From Dactylosporangium vinaceum (GTDB lineage Bacteria > Actinomycetota > Actinomycetes > Mycobacteriales > Micromonosporaceae), in contig NZ_CP061913.1 of NCBI RefSeq assembly GCF_019904175.1, forward strand, positions 1,674,001 to 1,738,000: 64,000 bases of DNA, given 5' to 3'. Shown in pieces: positions 5,160-59,786 of this stretch (its first letter is position 1; each line of letters opens with the position of its first letter). The translations under genes and the position numbers were made by a program. A model generated the notes under the pieces. It did not search any database and had not been told where the DNA came from. It saw only the letters and a program-made list of their open reading frames with translations.

Positions 5160-5819
5160 GTGCGTCTCGTCATCGCCAAGTGCTCGGTCGACTACATCGG
5201 CCGGCTCACGGCCCACCTCGCGCCCGCGACCCGCCTGCTGCTCATCAAGGCGGACGGGTCGATCTCGATCCACGCCGACGACCGGGCGTACAAGCCGCTG
5301 AACTGGATGTCCCCGCCCTGCCGGCTGGAGGAGACCGAGGGGCTGTGGCGGGTCGTCAACAAGGGCGGCGAGGAGCTGCGGATCACGATCGAGGAGATCC
5401 TGCACGACAGCTCGCACGAGCTGGGCATCGACCCGGGCCTGGTCAAGGACGGTGTCGAGGCGCACCTGCAGGAGCTGCTGGCGGCCGCGCCGGAGACGCT
5501 GGGCAGCGGGTTCACGCTTGTCCGGCGCGAGTACATGACCGCGATCGGGCCCGTCGACCTGCTCTGCCGCAACGGCGAGGGCGCGACCGTGGCTGTGGAG
5601 ATCAAGCGCCGGGGTGAGATCGACGGCGTGGAGCAGCTGACCCGATACCTCGAGCTGCTCGGCCGCGACCCCCTGCTCGCCCCGGTGTCGGGAATCTTCG
5701 CGGCGCAGGAGATCAAGCCGCAGGCCCGCGTGCTCGCCGAGGACCGGGGCATCCGCTGCGTCGTGCTCGACTACAACGCCCTGCGCGGGGCGAAGAAGGA
5801 CGAGCTCACGCTGTTCTAG
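5160..5819 (+). CDS. nucS: Mismatch-specific endonuclease NucS
   Basis: NucS/EndoMS makes double-strand cuts at mismatches and is the MutS/MutL-independent mismatch-repair nuclease of many actinobacteria. The 219-residue protein has the N-terminal [20 protein letters not shown] domain, a C-terminal RecB-like nuclease core ([30 protein letters not shown]) and the terminal KDELTLF, which resembles a sliding-clamp-binding peptide. The GTG start follows a -10 element without a ribosome-binding site. The last 14 bases overlap the convergent mutase gene. Confidence 0.95.
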
Positions 5820-7779
5820 CCGCGCAGATCACGCTCACCAGCTCATCGATCACGTCCGTGATCGCGAAGTCCTTGGGCGTGAACACCCGGGCCACCCCGG
5901 CGGCCAGCAGCGTCTGCGCGTCGGCGGGCGGGATGATGCCGCCCACCACCACGGGCAGGTCGGCGAGCCCGGCCGCGCGCAGACCCGACAGCACGGACTC
6001 CACCACGGCCAGGTGCGATCCCGACAAGACCGACAAACCTACTAGATTGACGTCCTCCTCCACGGCCGCGGCCACGATCTGGGCCGGCGTCAGGCGGATG
6101 CCCTGGTACACCACCTCGAACCCGGCGTCGCGGGCCCGCATGGCGATCTGCTCGGCCCCGTTCGAATGCCCGTCGAGCCCCGGCTTCCCGATGAGCAGGC
6201 GCAGCCGGCCGGTTCCGAGCTCCGCGGCGGCCCGGCGGACCCGCTCCCGCACGGCGGTCAGGTCGCCGGCGGGGACGGATGACGTGTTCCCCAGCCCGGT
6301 CGGCGCTCGGTACTCCCCGAAGACCTCCCGCAGCACCCCCGCCCATTCGCCGGTCGTCACACCTGCGGCAACGCAGTCGAGCGTCGCCGCCATCAGGTTC
6401 GCGTCGCCGGCCGCGGCCGCCCGCAGGGCCGCGAGCGCCGCCGTCACGTCGCCGCGCGCCGCCCGCCAGGCGACGACCGAGTCGACAGCCGCCCGTTCGA
6501 CACCGGGGTCGATCAGCTCGATGCCGGCCGCGGTCAGCGGCGACGGCTCCGTCTCGGTGAAGCGGTTCACCCCGACCATGACGTCCTCGCCGCTCTCCAG
6601 CCGGGCCCGCCGCGCGGCCAGCGACGCCACTAGCGAGCGCTTGAGATACCCGGACTCGACGGCGGCCACCACCCCGCCCATCGACAGCACCCGGTCCAGC
6701 TCCTGCGAGGCCTCGGCCACGACCCCGTCCACCAGCGCGGTCATCACGTGCGAGCCCTCGAACAGGTCTGGGTACTCCAGCAGATCCGACTCGAAGGCCA
6801 GCACCTGCTGCATGCGCAGCGACCACTGCTGGTCCCACGGCCGCGGCAGTCCAAGTGCTTCGTTCCAGGCCGGCAGCTGTACCGCCCGAGCCCGCGCCGA
6901 CCGCGACAGTGTCACGCCGAGCATCTCCAGGACGATCCGCTGGACGTTGTTCTCCGGCTGGGCCTCGGTCAGGCCGAGCGAGTTGACCTGCACCCCGTAG
7001 CGGAACCGGCGCGCGGCCGCGTCCCGCACCCCGTAGCGCTCGAGCGTGATCCGGTCCCAGAGCACGGTGAACGCCCGCATCTTCGCCGTCTCCTCGACGA
7101 AGCGCACGGACGCGTTGACGAAGAACGACATCCGGGCCACGACCGACGCGAAGCCGGAGTCCGGCACCTGGCCCGACGAGCGCACCGCGTCCAGCACGGC
7201 GATCGCCGTGGCCAGGGCGAACGCGACCTCCTGCACGGGCGTCGCCCCGGCCTCCTGCAGGTGGTACGAGCAGATGTTCACCGGGTTCCAGCGCGGGCAG
7301 TTCGCGACCGTCCAGGCGATGGTGTCGGTGGTGAGGCGCAGCGACGGGCCGGGCGGGAAGATGTGCGTGCCCCGGGACAGGTACTCCTTCACGATGTCGT
7401 TCTGCGTGGTGCCGGCCAGGGACGCGAGGTCGACGCCCTGCTCGCGGGCGCACGTGACGTACAACGCCAGCAGCCACATCGCCGTCGCGTTGATGGTCAT
7501 CGAGGTGTTCGCCCGCCCGAGGTCGATGCCGTCGAACAGGGCGCGCACGTCGCCGAGGTGCGCGACAGGCACGCCGACCCGCCCGACCTCGCCGCGGGCC
7601 GCTTCGGCGTCGGGGTCGTAGCCGGTCTGGGTCGGCAGGTCGAACGCCACCGAGAGGCCGGTCTGCCCCTTGGCCAGGTTGCGGCGGAAGAGGGCGTTGG
7701 AGGCGGCCGCCGAGGAGTGGCCGGCATAGGTGCGCATGACCCACGGGCGGTCGCGTTCGGGGAGCCTCTCGGTCACCAT
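5806..7779 (-). CDS. meaA: MeaA-type coenzyme B12-dependent mutase (probable ethylmalonyl-CoA mutase)
   Basis: A single 657-residue chain fuses the acyl-CoA mutase barrel to a C-terminal B12-binding domain, the layout of MeaA/ethylmalonyl-CoA mutase. The barrel shows [37 protein letters not shown] and [17 protein letters not shown]. The B12 domain has DGHSNG (lower-ligand His), [11 protein letters not shown] and VVVGGIIPP. The substrate cannot be proved from sequence, but ccr, epimerase, thiolase and meaB at 58-62 kb favour ethylmalonyl-CoA over methylmalonyl-CoA. The ATG at 7779 lies exactly at the predicted start of a leaderless transcript. Confidence 0.88.
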
Positions 7780-7785
7780 GCGAGT

Positions 7786-7804
7786 ACCCTACTGAACGGT
7801 AACT
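7786..7804 (-). promoter_or_regulatory. meaA promoter -10 with overlapping operator-like dyad
   Basis: On the minus strand TAGGGT (7791-7786) ends 6 bases before the meaA ATG, giving a leaderless start. A dyad of the form TACnGnnCnGTA (CTACTGAACGGTAA, 7789-7802) overlaps it. The ccr promoter carries the same dyad with the same 3-base offset from its -10 element. Confidence 0.55.
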
Positions 7805-12939: not shown

Positions 12940-14445
12940 CTACTTGGAGCGGCCGTGGACCAGGCGGACCACGCGCAGCATCTGGGAGATGGTCTTCTCG
13001 GTTCGGTCGAACGTCGTGGCGGCCAGCAGAGACGGAGCGCGGCGCTTCACGATGGACTTCGGGCGGGTGAACTCGCGCAGGCCGTCGTCGCCGTGAATGC
13101 GGCCGAAGCCGGAGTTGCCGACGCCGCCGAAGGGGAGTGCGGGCATGCCGGCGAAGGTCAGGGCCGAGTTGACCGATGTCATGCCCGAGCGGACCTGGCG
13201 GGCCAGACTGAGGCCCTGAGACTTCGAGAAGATGGCGCCGCCCAGGCCGTAGCCCGTGCTGTTCGCCAGCCGTACGCCCTCGGCCGCGTCGCGGACCCGG
13301 CTGACGGTCAAGGTCGGGCCGAAGGTCTCCTCCTGGACGGCGGCGGCGTCCTCCGGCACGTCGACCAGGATCGTGGGGTTCACGAACGGTGGCTGGACCG
13401 CCTCCGCGCCGCCCAGCACGGCGCGGCCGCCGCGGGTGAGGGCGTCTTCGATGTGGCGGCGGATGATCTCGATCTGGGACGGCATGGTGATCGGGCCGAT
13501 GTCCGAGGAGGGCTCGGCGCCCACGGTGAGCTTGGCGGCGCGGGCCACGACGCGGTTGAGGAAGTCGTCGAAGATCGGCTCGGCGACGTACACCCGCTCA
13601 ATGCCGACGCAGGTCTGGCCGGCGTTGGTCAGGCCGCCCCAGACACAGGCGCTCGCGGCCTCGTCCAGGTCGGCGTCGGCCGCCACGACCATCGCGTCCT
13701 TGCCGCCGCACTCCAGCAGCACGGGCGTGAGGGACTCGGCCGCCACGGCCATGACCTTCTTGCCGGTGGCCGTCGAGCCGGTGAAGGCGATCTTGTCGAC
13801 CCCGCTGCGGCAGAGGGCCGCGCCGACGTCGCCGAGGCCGTGGACGATCTGCAGGACCGGGTGCTCGGGGACGACCTCGTTGAAGCGGTCGACAAACCAT
13901 TGACCCACTGCCGGTGTGTACTCGCTGGGCTTGAACACCACCGCATTGCCCGCGGCAAGCGCGTAGGCGATCGACCCCATCGGCGTGAGAATCGGGTAGT
14001 TCCAGGGCCCGATCACCCCGACCACGCCCAGCGGCAGATATTCGAGGAACGCCGCGTGCTCCTTCAGCAGCAGCGAGCTCCCGACCCGCCGGCGCCCGAG
14101 CACCTTGCGGGCCCGCTGCGCCGCCCACGCGATGTGGTCGACCGCCGCGATCGCCTCGACCAACGCGTCCGCGCGCGGCTTGCCGCCCTCGCGGTTCATG
14201 AGCGCGGCCAGCTCCTCGAGGCGGTTGGTGAGCACGCTGCGGAACGCCAGCAGGCGCTGCTTCCGCCCGGAGAATCCGAGTCCGGCCCACCATGCGGCCG
14301 CGTCACGCGCCCGGGCGACGGCGGCGGTGAGAGAATCGGTGGAGGCGACCGGGAAGCGGCCGACCTCCTCGCCCGTCGCGGGGTTGGTCGAGATCAGCGA
14401 GCCCTCGTCGATGGCGGGGACGCCGGGCGTTCGCGTGGCGGTCAT
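12940..14445 (-). CDS. NAD(P)-dependent aldehyde dehydrogenase
   Basis: Oxidises an aldehyde to a carboxylate; the substrate is unknown. The 501-residue protein has the cofactor-binding IGPWNYPILTPMGSIAYALAAG and KIAFTGSTATGKKVM segments, the catalytic Glu in LLECGGKDAMV and the catalytic Cys in NAGQTCVGIERVYV, followed by EETFGPTLTVSRV and PFGGVGNSGFGRIHG. The ATG at 14445 is chosen because a TACACT -10 element lies exactly 6 bases upstream; an extension to 14541 would be non-homologous. An operator-like dyad sits in the promoter. Confidence 0.93.
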   Translation of the reverse strand: MTATRTPGVPAIDEGSLISTNPATGEEVGRFPVASTDSLTAAVARARDAAAWWAGLGFSGRKQRLLAFRSVLTNRLEELAALMNREGGKPRADALVEAIAAVDHIAWAAQRARKVLGRRRVGSSLLLKEHAAFLEYLPLGVVGVIGPWNYPILTPMGSIAYALAAGNAVVFKPSEYTPAVGQWFVDRFNEVVPEHPVLQIVHGLGDVGAALCRSGVDKIAFTGSTATGKKVMAVAAESLTPVLLECGGKDAMVVAADADLDEAASACVWGGLTNAGQTCVGIERVYVAEPIFDDFLNRVVARAAKLTVGAEPSSDIGPITMPSQIEIIRRHIEDALTRGGRAVLGGAEAVQPPFVNPTILVDVPEDAAAVQEETFGPTLTVSRVRDAAEGVRLANSTGYGLGGAIFSKSQGLSLARQVRSGMTSVNSALTFAGMPALPFGGVGNSGFGRIHGDDGLREFTRPKSIVKRRAPSLLAATTFDRTEKTISQMLRVVRLVHGRSK

Positions 14446-14451
14446 GGCGCG

Positions 14452-14481
14452 AGTGTAAACCCGGAAATTACTCACGAGTAA
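14452..14481 (-). promoter_or_regulatory. Aldehyde dehydrogenase promoter and dyad
   Basis: TACACT on the minus strand (14457-14452) precedes the ATG by 6 bases. TTACTC-AC-GAGTAA at 14468-14481 is an inverted repeat with 6-base arms in the -35 region, of a size typical for TetR-family operators. It partly resembles the meaA and ccr dyads (shared TACT...GTA frame). Confidence 0.45.
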
Positions 14482-14558
14482 GCCCCGAGCGGCCCCGCGA
14501 TGTCGAAAACCCGGTGCGCACTCCGACCAGTGGGTGGACACAGGCCCAGGAGGAACGG

Positions 14559-58413: not shown

Positions 58414-59745
58414 CTAACGGTTTCGAAACCGGTTGATCGCGGCCTCGTGCCGGGCCCGCAGCTGTGGATCACGAACGCCGAGGCCCTCGGCCGGGGCCAG
58501 GCCCAGGACGCCGACCTTGCCCTGGTGCAGGTTCCTGTGCACGTCCGACGCGGCCTGGCCGGTCTGCTCGAGGCAGTACACCCGCGAAAGCGTCGGGTGG
58601 ACACGACCGCGCATGATCAGCCGATTGGCCTCCCAGGCTTCCCGGTAGTTCGCGAAGTGGCTGCCGATGATCCTTTTGAGGTGCATCCAGAGATACCGGT
58701 TGTCGTACTGGTGCAGGTACCCCGACGTCGAGGCGCAGGTCACGATCGTGCCGCCGCGCTTGGCGACGTACACGGACGCGCCGAACGTCTCCCGGCCCGG
58801 GTGCTCGAAGACGATGTCGGGGTCCTCGCCGCCGGTCAGTGCCCGGATCTCCGCGCCGAACCGTTTCCACTCCGACACGTCCTGGGTCTGCTCGTCGCGC
58901 CAGAAGCGGTACCCGGACCTGTCGATCACCAGCTCGGCGCCCATGGCCCGGCACAATTGCGCCTTCTGGGGGCTCGAAACCACACAAACGGGGGTCGCCC
59001 CACCGTTGAGTGCGAACTGCACCGCGTAGGAGCCGAGGCCCCCGGAGGCGCCCCAGATCAGCACGGTGTCGCCCTGCTTCATCCGGGCGCCGTGGCGGGA
59101 GACGAGCTGGCGATACGCGGTCGAGTTCACCAGCCCCGGGCACGCCGCCTCCTCCCACGACAGGTGGACCGGCTTGGGCATGAGCTGGTTGGCCTTGACC
59201 AGGGCGAGCTCGGCCAGGCCGCCGTAGTTGGTCTCGAAGCCCCAGATCCGCTGCTGCGGGTCGAGCATGGTGTCGTCGTGGCCGGCCGCGTCCTCCAGCT
59301 CGACGCTCAGGCAGTGCGCCACCACCTCGTCGCCGGGCCGCCATCTGGTGACACCGGGGCCCACTCGCAGTACCACTCCAGCTGCGTCTGAACCGACGAC
59401 GTGATAGGGGCGATCATGCCCCCGTCCGTAACGGCGCAGGAACGCGAAGGTCGGGACCGGCTCGAAGATCGACGTCCAGACGGTGTTGTAGTTGACGGCG
59501 GAGCCCATGACCGCGATCAGGGCCTCGCCGGGCCCGACCTCTGGTGTGGGGACCTCCTGCACATGCAGTGACTTGCGCGGGTCCTTCTCCCGGGTGTCGA
59601 GCCCGTCGAACATCGCCGCCTCGGCGGCCCGCACGACGACACCCCGATAACTCTCGGGCACCGGCAGCGCGGCCACCGCCCGGAGCTCGGCCGCCGGATC
59701 GGCCGCCCCCTCCGCCTGCATGATCGCATCGAGAATCTTCTGCAT
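58414..59745 (-). CDS. ccr: Crotonyl-CoA carboxylase/reductase
   Basis: Reductively carboxylates crotonyl-CoA to ethylmalonyl-CoA using NADPH and CO2, the key step of the ethylmalonyl-CoA pathway and a source of polyketide extender units. The 443-residue MDR protein has the long N-terminal region typical of Ccr (MQKILDAIMQAEGAADPAAE, GSAVNYNTVWTSIFEPVPTF), the NADPH-binding VLIWGASGGLGSYAVQFALN and FEHPGRETFGASVYVAKRGG. The ATG at 59745 lies 7 bases after a TAACCT -10 element. An operator-like dyad shared with meaA overlaps the promoter. It lies downstream of the epimerase gene. Confidence 0.95.
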   Translation of the reverse strand: MQKILDAIMQAEGAADPAAELRAVAALPVPESYRGVVVRAAEAAMFDGLDTREKDPRKSLHVQEVPTPEVGPGEALIAVMGSAVNYNTVWTSIFEPVPTFAFLRRYGRGHDRPYHVVGSDAAGVVLRVGPGVTRWRPGDEVVAHCLSVELEDAAGHDDTMLDPQQRIWGFETNYGGLAELALVKANQLMPKPVHLSWEEAACPGLVNSTAYRQLVSRHGARMKQGDTVLIWGASGGLGSYAVQFALNGGATPVCVVSSPQKAQLCRAMGAELVIDRSGYRFWRDEQTQDVSEWKRFGAEIRALTGGEDPDIVFEHPGRETFGASVYVAKRGGTIVTCASTSGYLHQYDNRYLWMHLKRIIGSHFANYREAWEANRLIMRGRVHPTLSRVYCLEQTGQAASDVHRNLHQGKVGVLGLAPAEGLGVRDPQLRARHEAAINRFRNR

Positions 59746-59752
59746 GGGCCGG

Positions 59753-59769
59753 AGGTTACTGACCGGTAG
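59753..59769 (-). promoter_or_regulatory. ccr promoter -10 with overlapping operator-like dyad
   Basis: On the minus strand TAACCT (59758-59753) ends 7 bases before the ccr ATG. TTACTGACCGGTAG (59756-59769) fits TACnGnnCnGTA and overlaps the -10 by 3 bases, exactly as in the meaA promoter. Confidence 0.6.
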
Positions 59770-59786
59770 CTTATCGGCGGAACGGC

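Follow-up and report, generated by a model that had tools for sequence, protein, structure and literature searches.

The ethylmalonyl-CoA pathway assimilates the acetyl-CoA that is made by beta-oxidation, and in Methylobacterium extorquens, the TetR-family protein CcrR activates ccr from a palindrome situated far upstream. Among actinobacteria, long-chain acyl-CoA is sensed in Mycobacterium tuberculosis by FasR, which, according to the sections available of two reports, recognizes three inverted repeats ahead of fas-acpS, from which long-chain acyl-CoA releases it (PMC7382501, PMC7652896); in mycobacteria, the protein is described there as an activator of fas-acpS (PMC7652896). FdmR, a TetR-family protein of Mycobacterium marinum, was presented, in the portion of the report at hand, as regulating fadE5 along with further genes of fatty acid catabolism (PMC9262360). 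A full-text literature search, which gave access to the papers in part, returned no paper tying the actinobacterial ethylmalonyl-CoA pathway to the site described below or to FasR, and an exact literature search for 14-16-base versions of the site gave no match.

Here, we analyzed a 64-kb window (i.e., the whole stretch of DNA under study; G000:C1:1674001-1738000) from a genome of the family Micromonosporaceae, in which imperfect copies of GTTACYGNNCRGTAAC are found upstream of both meaA, a name taken over from an earlier note on this DNA, and ccr (Table 1). The earlier note had claimed that matching dyads precede the two genes, and this was borne out: CTACTGAACGGTAA occupies 7789-7802 and TTACTGACCGGTAG occupies 59756-59769, where that note had placed them. 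On the gene strand, which is minus for both genes, they read GTTACCGTTCAGTAGGGTACTCGCATG (meaA) and GCTACCGGTCAGTAACCTCCGGCCCATG (ccr). In the 11.96-Mb, one-contig genome, the 12-mer TACTGAMCGGTA is found without a mismatch at two places, precisely at meaA and ccr, with 0.63 occurrences expected from base composition. In both promoters, a TANNNT hexamer (7791-7786 and 59758-59753) overlaps the right arm of the dyad, and because these hexamers end 6 or 7 bases before the ATG, the meaA and ccr transcripts look leaderless. In many genera, we also observed the stretch TTTTCAC(A or C), which lies about 15 nt ahead of the ccr dyad (e.g., L190-L213) and about 8 nt ahead of the meaA dyad (TTTCACC in the window); the dyad does not explain this stretch, which could be a second binding site.

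Table 1. Positions in the window of the dyads, the predicted -10 hexamers, and the genes behind them.
Feature	Position	Strand	Basis
Dyad, likely operator (predicted) of meaA, GTTACCGTTCAGTAGG on gene strand	7788..7803	-	20.8 bits, 40-site matrix
-10 hexamer TAGGGT of meaA, predicted	7786..7791	-	Sequence; TA in common with dyad; end 6 bases before ATG
meaA, acyl-CoA mutase (ethylmalonyl-CoA mutase type)	5806..7779	-	NCBIfam acid_CoA_mut_N and _C above cut-off
Dyad, likely operator (predicted) of ccr, GCTACCGGTCAGTAAC on gene strand	59755..59770	-	22.1 bits, 40-site matrix
-10 hexamer TAACCT of ccr, predicted	59753..59758	-	Sequence; TAAC in common with dyad; end 7 bases before ATG
ccr, crotonyl-CoA carboxylase/reductase	58414..59745	-	TIGR01751 604 bits, cut-off 379
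Third dyad copy, CTTACTCGTGAGTAAT on gene strand, upstream of aldehyde dehydrogenase	14467..14482	-	16.3 bits
-10 hexamer TACACT of aldehyde dehydrogenase gene, predicted	14452..14457	-	Sequence
Aldehyde dehydrogenase	12940..14445	-	Pfam Aldedh; NCBIfam: closest to succinic-semialdehyde dehydrogenases, below their cut-offs

The likeness of the two window sites might be a matter of chance, and loose versions of the pattern are indeed close to background. With up to three mismatches, the pattern of the earlier note has 4 matches in the window versus a shuffle mean of 3.0, which is background, and with up to two mismatches it has 413 matches in the genome versus 316 for the reversed pattern, only slightly above. 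Because the 12-mer pattern was written from these two sites, the real test lies with the orthologues. Among 61 Micromonosporaceae genomes, a site of at least 13 bits was found no more than 300 nt upstream of ccr orthologues (at least 76% identity) in 23 of 26 cases and, likewise at 13 bits or more, upstream of meaA orthologues in 20 of 24, family counts that are partly circular, the scoring matrix having been trained on 40 Micromonosporaceae sites. Outside the training of the matrix are 22 named ccr loci beyond the family and all fadE5 loci. Four more distant ccr homologues (L057-L060, 57-75% identical) were excluded from the 26, and no site was found within 200 nt of them; six other mutases (L085-L090) were excluded from the meaA set. 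Two genomes, G007 and G026, in which meaA lies directly downstream of a site-bearing ccr, were counted as meaA misses. The dyad is missing at both genes in G018 and G052, and at ccr in G046.

When the best 80 of 592 named ccr loci were considered, many of them near relatives within Micromonospora, the site was present in 48. Within this set of 80, every one of the 48 loci outside Streptomyces, Kribbella, and Frankia has a site of at least 14 bits, including the 22 outside the training family, and the dyad was found at ccr in 0 of 25 Streptomyces, 0 of 5 Kribbella (7.7 to 11.4 bits), and 0 of 2 Frankia loci. The Kribbella ccr loci (L215-L230) show, at a similar place, CATACTCAGCGGTAAG-like sequences with these scores, which may be weakened versions of the site. 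In other genomes, TACNGNNCNGTA, written from the two window sites alone, stands without a mismatch in only a few of the regions before ccr (7 of 29) and before meaA (5 of 23), because the inner G and C vary; allowing one mismatch raises these counts to 16 and 13, respectively (random windows: 0.96% and 4.6%). Throughout the 61 family genomes, GTTACYGNNCRGTAAC with at most one mismatch gave 293 matches versus 56 for the reversed pattern, and at 16 bits or more the matrix gave 46 real versus 1 reversed match in 740 kb of regions that had been chosen for holding ccr, meaA, or sites. The earlier note had named conservation upstream of meaA and ccr in relatives as a test, and such conservation was found; with sites at these orthologue promoters and at 22 of the 22 named ccr loci outside the training family, Streptomyces, Kribbella, and Frankia (within the best 80 of 592), the chance reading is refuted by conservation, and its probability is negligible.

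The same note had claimed that the dyad is placed identically on the -10 element at both genes. This holds for meaA and ccr of the window, but may be less strict in the family: in 13 of 20 family genomes, a TANNNT abuts the meaA dyad on its downstream side (GTAAC-TTAGACT), either instead of an overlapping one or besides it, and 9 of those 13 genomes, which also carry a TANNNT overlapping the dyad, have two candidate -10s. Overall, TANNNT overlaps the meaA dyad in 16 of 20 family sites. At ccr, the hexamer starts in the right arm of the dyad in 47 of 48 named sites (best 80 of 592 loci) and in 18 of 20 family sites, and in the window's own genome, the same overlap was seen at EtfD-like, PAQR, SDR, and acyl-CoA dehydrogenase genes. 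With the site on or against the predicted -10, repression, by steric hindrance, is the likely mode of action. Alternatively, the dyad might be an activator site or a promoter element, or might be bound by a protein outside the TetR family, for instance a response regulator of the OmpR type: GTTAC-N6-GTAAC may resemble the MtrA and GlnR boxes, CcrR is an activator of ccr, and several genome matches lie before secreted or membrane proteins. FasR itself is an activator in mycobacteria, as far as the available part of that report goes (PMC7652896). Against this alternative, a pyrimidine follows GTTAC in all 40 training sites, with a purine at the mirror position, and the pair that follows consists mostly of G and C, so that the middle of the dyad is symmetric too; moreover, the ccr dyad overlaps the -10, a rare position for an activator. 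We consider such an activator site, promoter element, or non-TetR protein quite improbable.

The element extends to genes beyond the ethylmalonyl-CoA pathway. The third copy in the window is matched by a site at the same place in five other fetched regions with orthologues of the aldehyde dehydrogenase, four with at least 14 bits and one with 9.2. In the window's own genome, two sites stand in tandem upstream of the fadE5-type acyl-CoA dehydrogenase gene, and further sites were found before an EtfD-like Fe-S oxidoreductase gene, a PAQR-family gene, a CitE/malyl-CoA-lyase-like gene with a divergent SDR, and a short acyl-CoA dehydrogenase gene. We take the names EtfD-like, fadE5-type, FAS-I, and acpS from resemblance to known proteins, together with size and context. 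A fadE5-type gene is present in 36 of 45 genomes of the class Actinomycetes, and all 34 fadE5-type loci examined class-wide have a site of at least 14 bits upstream, a count that includes neither G080 and G097 nor the second copies that G063 and G091 have; 24 of 30 loci carry a further site of 9 bits or more no farther than 250 nt away. That the sites might mark other acyl-CoA genes had been raised in the earlier note, and they do (fadE5-type, EtfD-like, and acyl-CoA dehydrogenase genes), although the regulon is then not specific to the ethylmalonyl-CoA pathway. Because the site also stands upstream of fadE5-type genes in all of these class-wide loci, it would mark an acyl-CoA catabolism regulon, into which several families appear to have brought the ethylmalonyl-CoA pathway. 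We regard as firm the existence of the element, its conservation, and its location at genes of acyl-CoA catabolism. As for other genes, a site of 15.4 bits stands at the methylmalonyl-CoA epimerase gene of G031 (L107:10916), and the window's own epimerase promoter (mce, 60254 and upstream) has a degenerate remnant only. Against the proposed regulon, many strong GTTACYGNNCRGTAAC matches were also seen before genes for secreted or membrane proteins with other functions (L142, L159, L160, and L161 in the window's own genome; L270, L271, L272, and L288), possibly reflecting a second, overlapping motif.

The earlier note had suggested one shared, perhaps TetR-type repressor. The shared promoter element stands and a TetR is the best candidate, but the regulator would be unlinked: a regular-expression scan of the 64-kb window for the TetR helix-turn-helix pattern gave none, next to ccr or elsewhere. 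In other genomes, such a neighbor exists, and an orthologue of the ccr-linked TetR of G007, G026, and Streptomyces might bind the dyad. This TetR is linked to ccr in 2 family genomes and is no farther than 10 kb from ccr in 24 of 25 loci of Streptomyces, and a perfect palindrome, GTTACTCACGAGTAAC, occurs at ccr in G007 and G026. The ccr-adjacent TetR of Streptomyces coelicolor is sco6474, as named in the part of a report available to us (PMC7324645). However, a match at 1e-25 was found in only 14 of 61 family genomes, and Streptomyces ccr, beside such a TetR, is without the dyad in 25 of 25 loci (within the best 80 of 592), which makes binding by this TetR very unlikely. Of these Streptomyces loci (L231-L268), 24 of 25 have the TetR gene 1 to 6 kb upstream of ccr and in the same orientation. 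The relative of the ccr-linked TetR in the window's own genome (8.716 Mb) was dropped, being 42% identical and located beside a permease gene. Several described regulators were also set aside on the published sites, insofar as the accessible text gives them: PccD, with sites unlike the dyad (PMC11596240, PMC10933834); AccR, with a half-site GTTAA that differs from ours, in which the fifth base is C in 92% and A in 7% of the half-sites of the 40 sites (PMC10933834); Rv0158, with a different motif (PMC10501769); and SCO3201, with the different site TGGCAGATTCTGCCA (PMC7324645).

The best-supported candidate, as judged from sequence, is the orthologue of Mycobacterium tuberculosis FasR, whose gene is unlinked. 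Informative here are two genomes of 1.3-1.4 Mb, each with three TetRs and a site 11 nt before fadE5; no other site within 20 kb reaches 13 bits. When these TetRs were compared with the 63 TetR loci found in six genomes, full-length orthologues (55-58% identical) in each of the four other genomes were obtained for the FasR-like one alone; the best matches of the other two were 31% and 30%. The FasR-like TetR is present in 59 of 61 family genomes and in 41 of 45 class genomes. The latter include all 36 that are fadE5-positive, and the four class genomes without it are also without fadE5 (one-sided p 8e-4; the assembly is incomplete for three of these four). Among the 63 TetR loci, 12 bits or more are reached by sites at three FasR-like orthologues and at one other locus, L363, a partial TetR gene of G083 with a site of 13.4 bits some 200 nt away. 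Of the 41 class-wide FasR-like matches, 30 loci were fetched and 29 scored, and 12 of the 29 carry a site of at least 9 bits in the gene's own promoter, often on a TANNNT; such a site was found in 0 of 28 family loci (scored out of 29 further ones), and none was found at the own locus or in either of the two tiny genomes, which speaks against this candidate.

The orthologue in the window's own genome (G000:C1:11140853-11141425) lies outside the window and aligns with M. tuberculosis FasR (6o6n) over residues 1-191 of 191 (E 8.5e-56); 6o6n is FasR according to the available part of its report (PMC7382501). The segment VSKPVLYQHF is invariant in six aligned orthologues and identical in M. tuberculosis FasR, but the protein scores under the curated NCBIfam FasR cut-off (NF053731, 263 versus 330 bits). 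In the mycobacterium-like genome G063, whose FasR matches that of M. tuberculosis at E 1e-121, three sites of at least 10 bits (10.1-12.1) fall in a 272-bp stretch that surrounds and precedes the start of a FAS-I-like gene, which is followed by an acpS-like gene, and 3 of the 4 sites of at least 8 bits in this 20-kb locus fall within those 272 bp. The DNA co-crystallized with M. tuberculosis FasR contains TAC-N6-GTA, yet scores 5.3 bits with the matrix, a weak match. The FAS-I domain PF18314 was not found in the window's own genome, a weak test given that the true match in G063 itself was below the cut-off.

Another acyl-CoA-responsive TetR, e.g., an orthologue of FdmR, might bind the dyad instead, with FasR merely having a similar recognition sequence. 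This is the main rival; fadE5, the most widespread bearer of the site, is credited to FdmR in the accessible part of the M. marinum report, a comparison made by description only (PMC9262360). The non-FasR TetRs of the two tiny genomes, however, have no full-length relative above 31% in four other genomes, which counts against it as an indirect test, and we regard control by such a TetR as unlikely. Our preferred reading, which we hold to be probable, is that the dyads, copies of a conserved 16-base promoter element, are operators of an unlinked FasR-type TetR repressor that leaves the DNA on binding long-chain acyl-CoA. A FasR-type dimer on the element would block RNA polymerase at the -10; during fatty acid degradation, long-chain acyl-CoA would release the repressor from the element, and the genes of beta-oxidation and the ethylmalonyl-CoA pathway would then be expressed together. 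For the broader proposal, that the FasR family is an ancestral, class-wide beta-oxidation repressor and that its operator was also placed over the ethylmalonyl-CoA pathway in Micromonosporaceae, Pseudonocardiaceae, and Geodermatophilaceae, we see about equal chances of being right or wrong.

Because the same site stands at two ethylmalonyl-CoA genes and at an actinobacterial fatty-acid-degradation gene, one fat-sensing TetR-family repressor likely switches fat burning and the ethylmalonyl-CoA route on together. One acyl-CoA-released repressor over both beta-oxidation and the ethylmalonyl-CoA pathway would be physiologically sensible. Both ccr and meaA occur in 24 family genomes, of which 19 are without a strong isocitrate lyase match and five have one (the window's own genome, G018, G036, G052, and G057); a strong match was found in 31 of the other 37 family genomes. 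G018 and G052, which belong to one genus, combine a strong isocitrate lyase match with the lack of the dyad at ccr and meaA, as if these genomes had abandoned control of the pathway. If the proposed control is true, production and assimilation of acetyl-CoA would be switched on by one signal, and the ethylmalonyl-CoA pathway would gain a regulator open to testing, long-chain acyl-CoA as its signal, and a list of targets. There would also be a reason why growth on fat would raise ethylmalonyl-CoA and methylmalonyl-CoA, which are precursors of many polyketides, and the mycobacterial FAS-I activator FasR would represent one branch of an older fat-degradation repressor.

Compared with known systems, the predicted control resembles that by CcrR in that a TetR would act at a palindrome for ccr, and differs from it in that CcrR is an activator with a distant site in another phylum. 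RamB of Paracoccus denitrificans likewise provides a transcriptional link to the ethylmalonyl-CoA pathway, but as described in the part of the report at hand, it is another regulator in another phylum (PMC10370305). AccR of Streptomyces avermitilis is, in the sections of text available, a TetR repressor of short-chain acyl-CoA genes at a 16-base palindrome, whereas its GTTAA-N6-TTAAC differs from the GTTAC half-site here and its targets are others (PMC10933834). FdmR shares TetR control of fadE5 and fatty acid catabolism with the present proposal, in which the site stands at fadE5-type genes in 34 of 34 loci; unlike here, an ethylmalonyl-CoA pathway target is not mentioned in the accessible portion of that report, from whose description alone the comparison is drawn (PMC9262360). 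A parallel in sequence is FasR (Rv3208), with full-length homology and an identical recognition segment; in a mycobacterium-like genome, fas has inverted repeats that look related, and long-chain acyl-CoA would fit as the ligand; FasR activates fatty acid synthesis there, whereas its orthologue is predicted here to repress acyl-CoA catabolism and the ethylmalonyl-CoA pathway.
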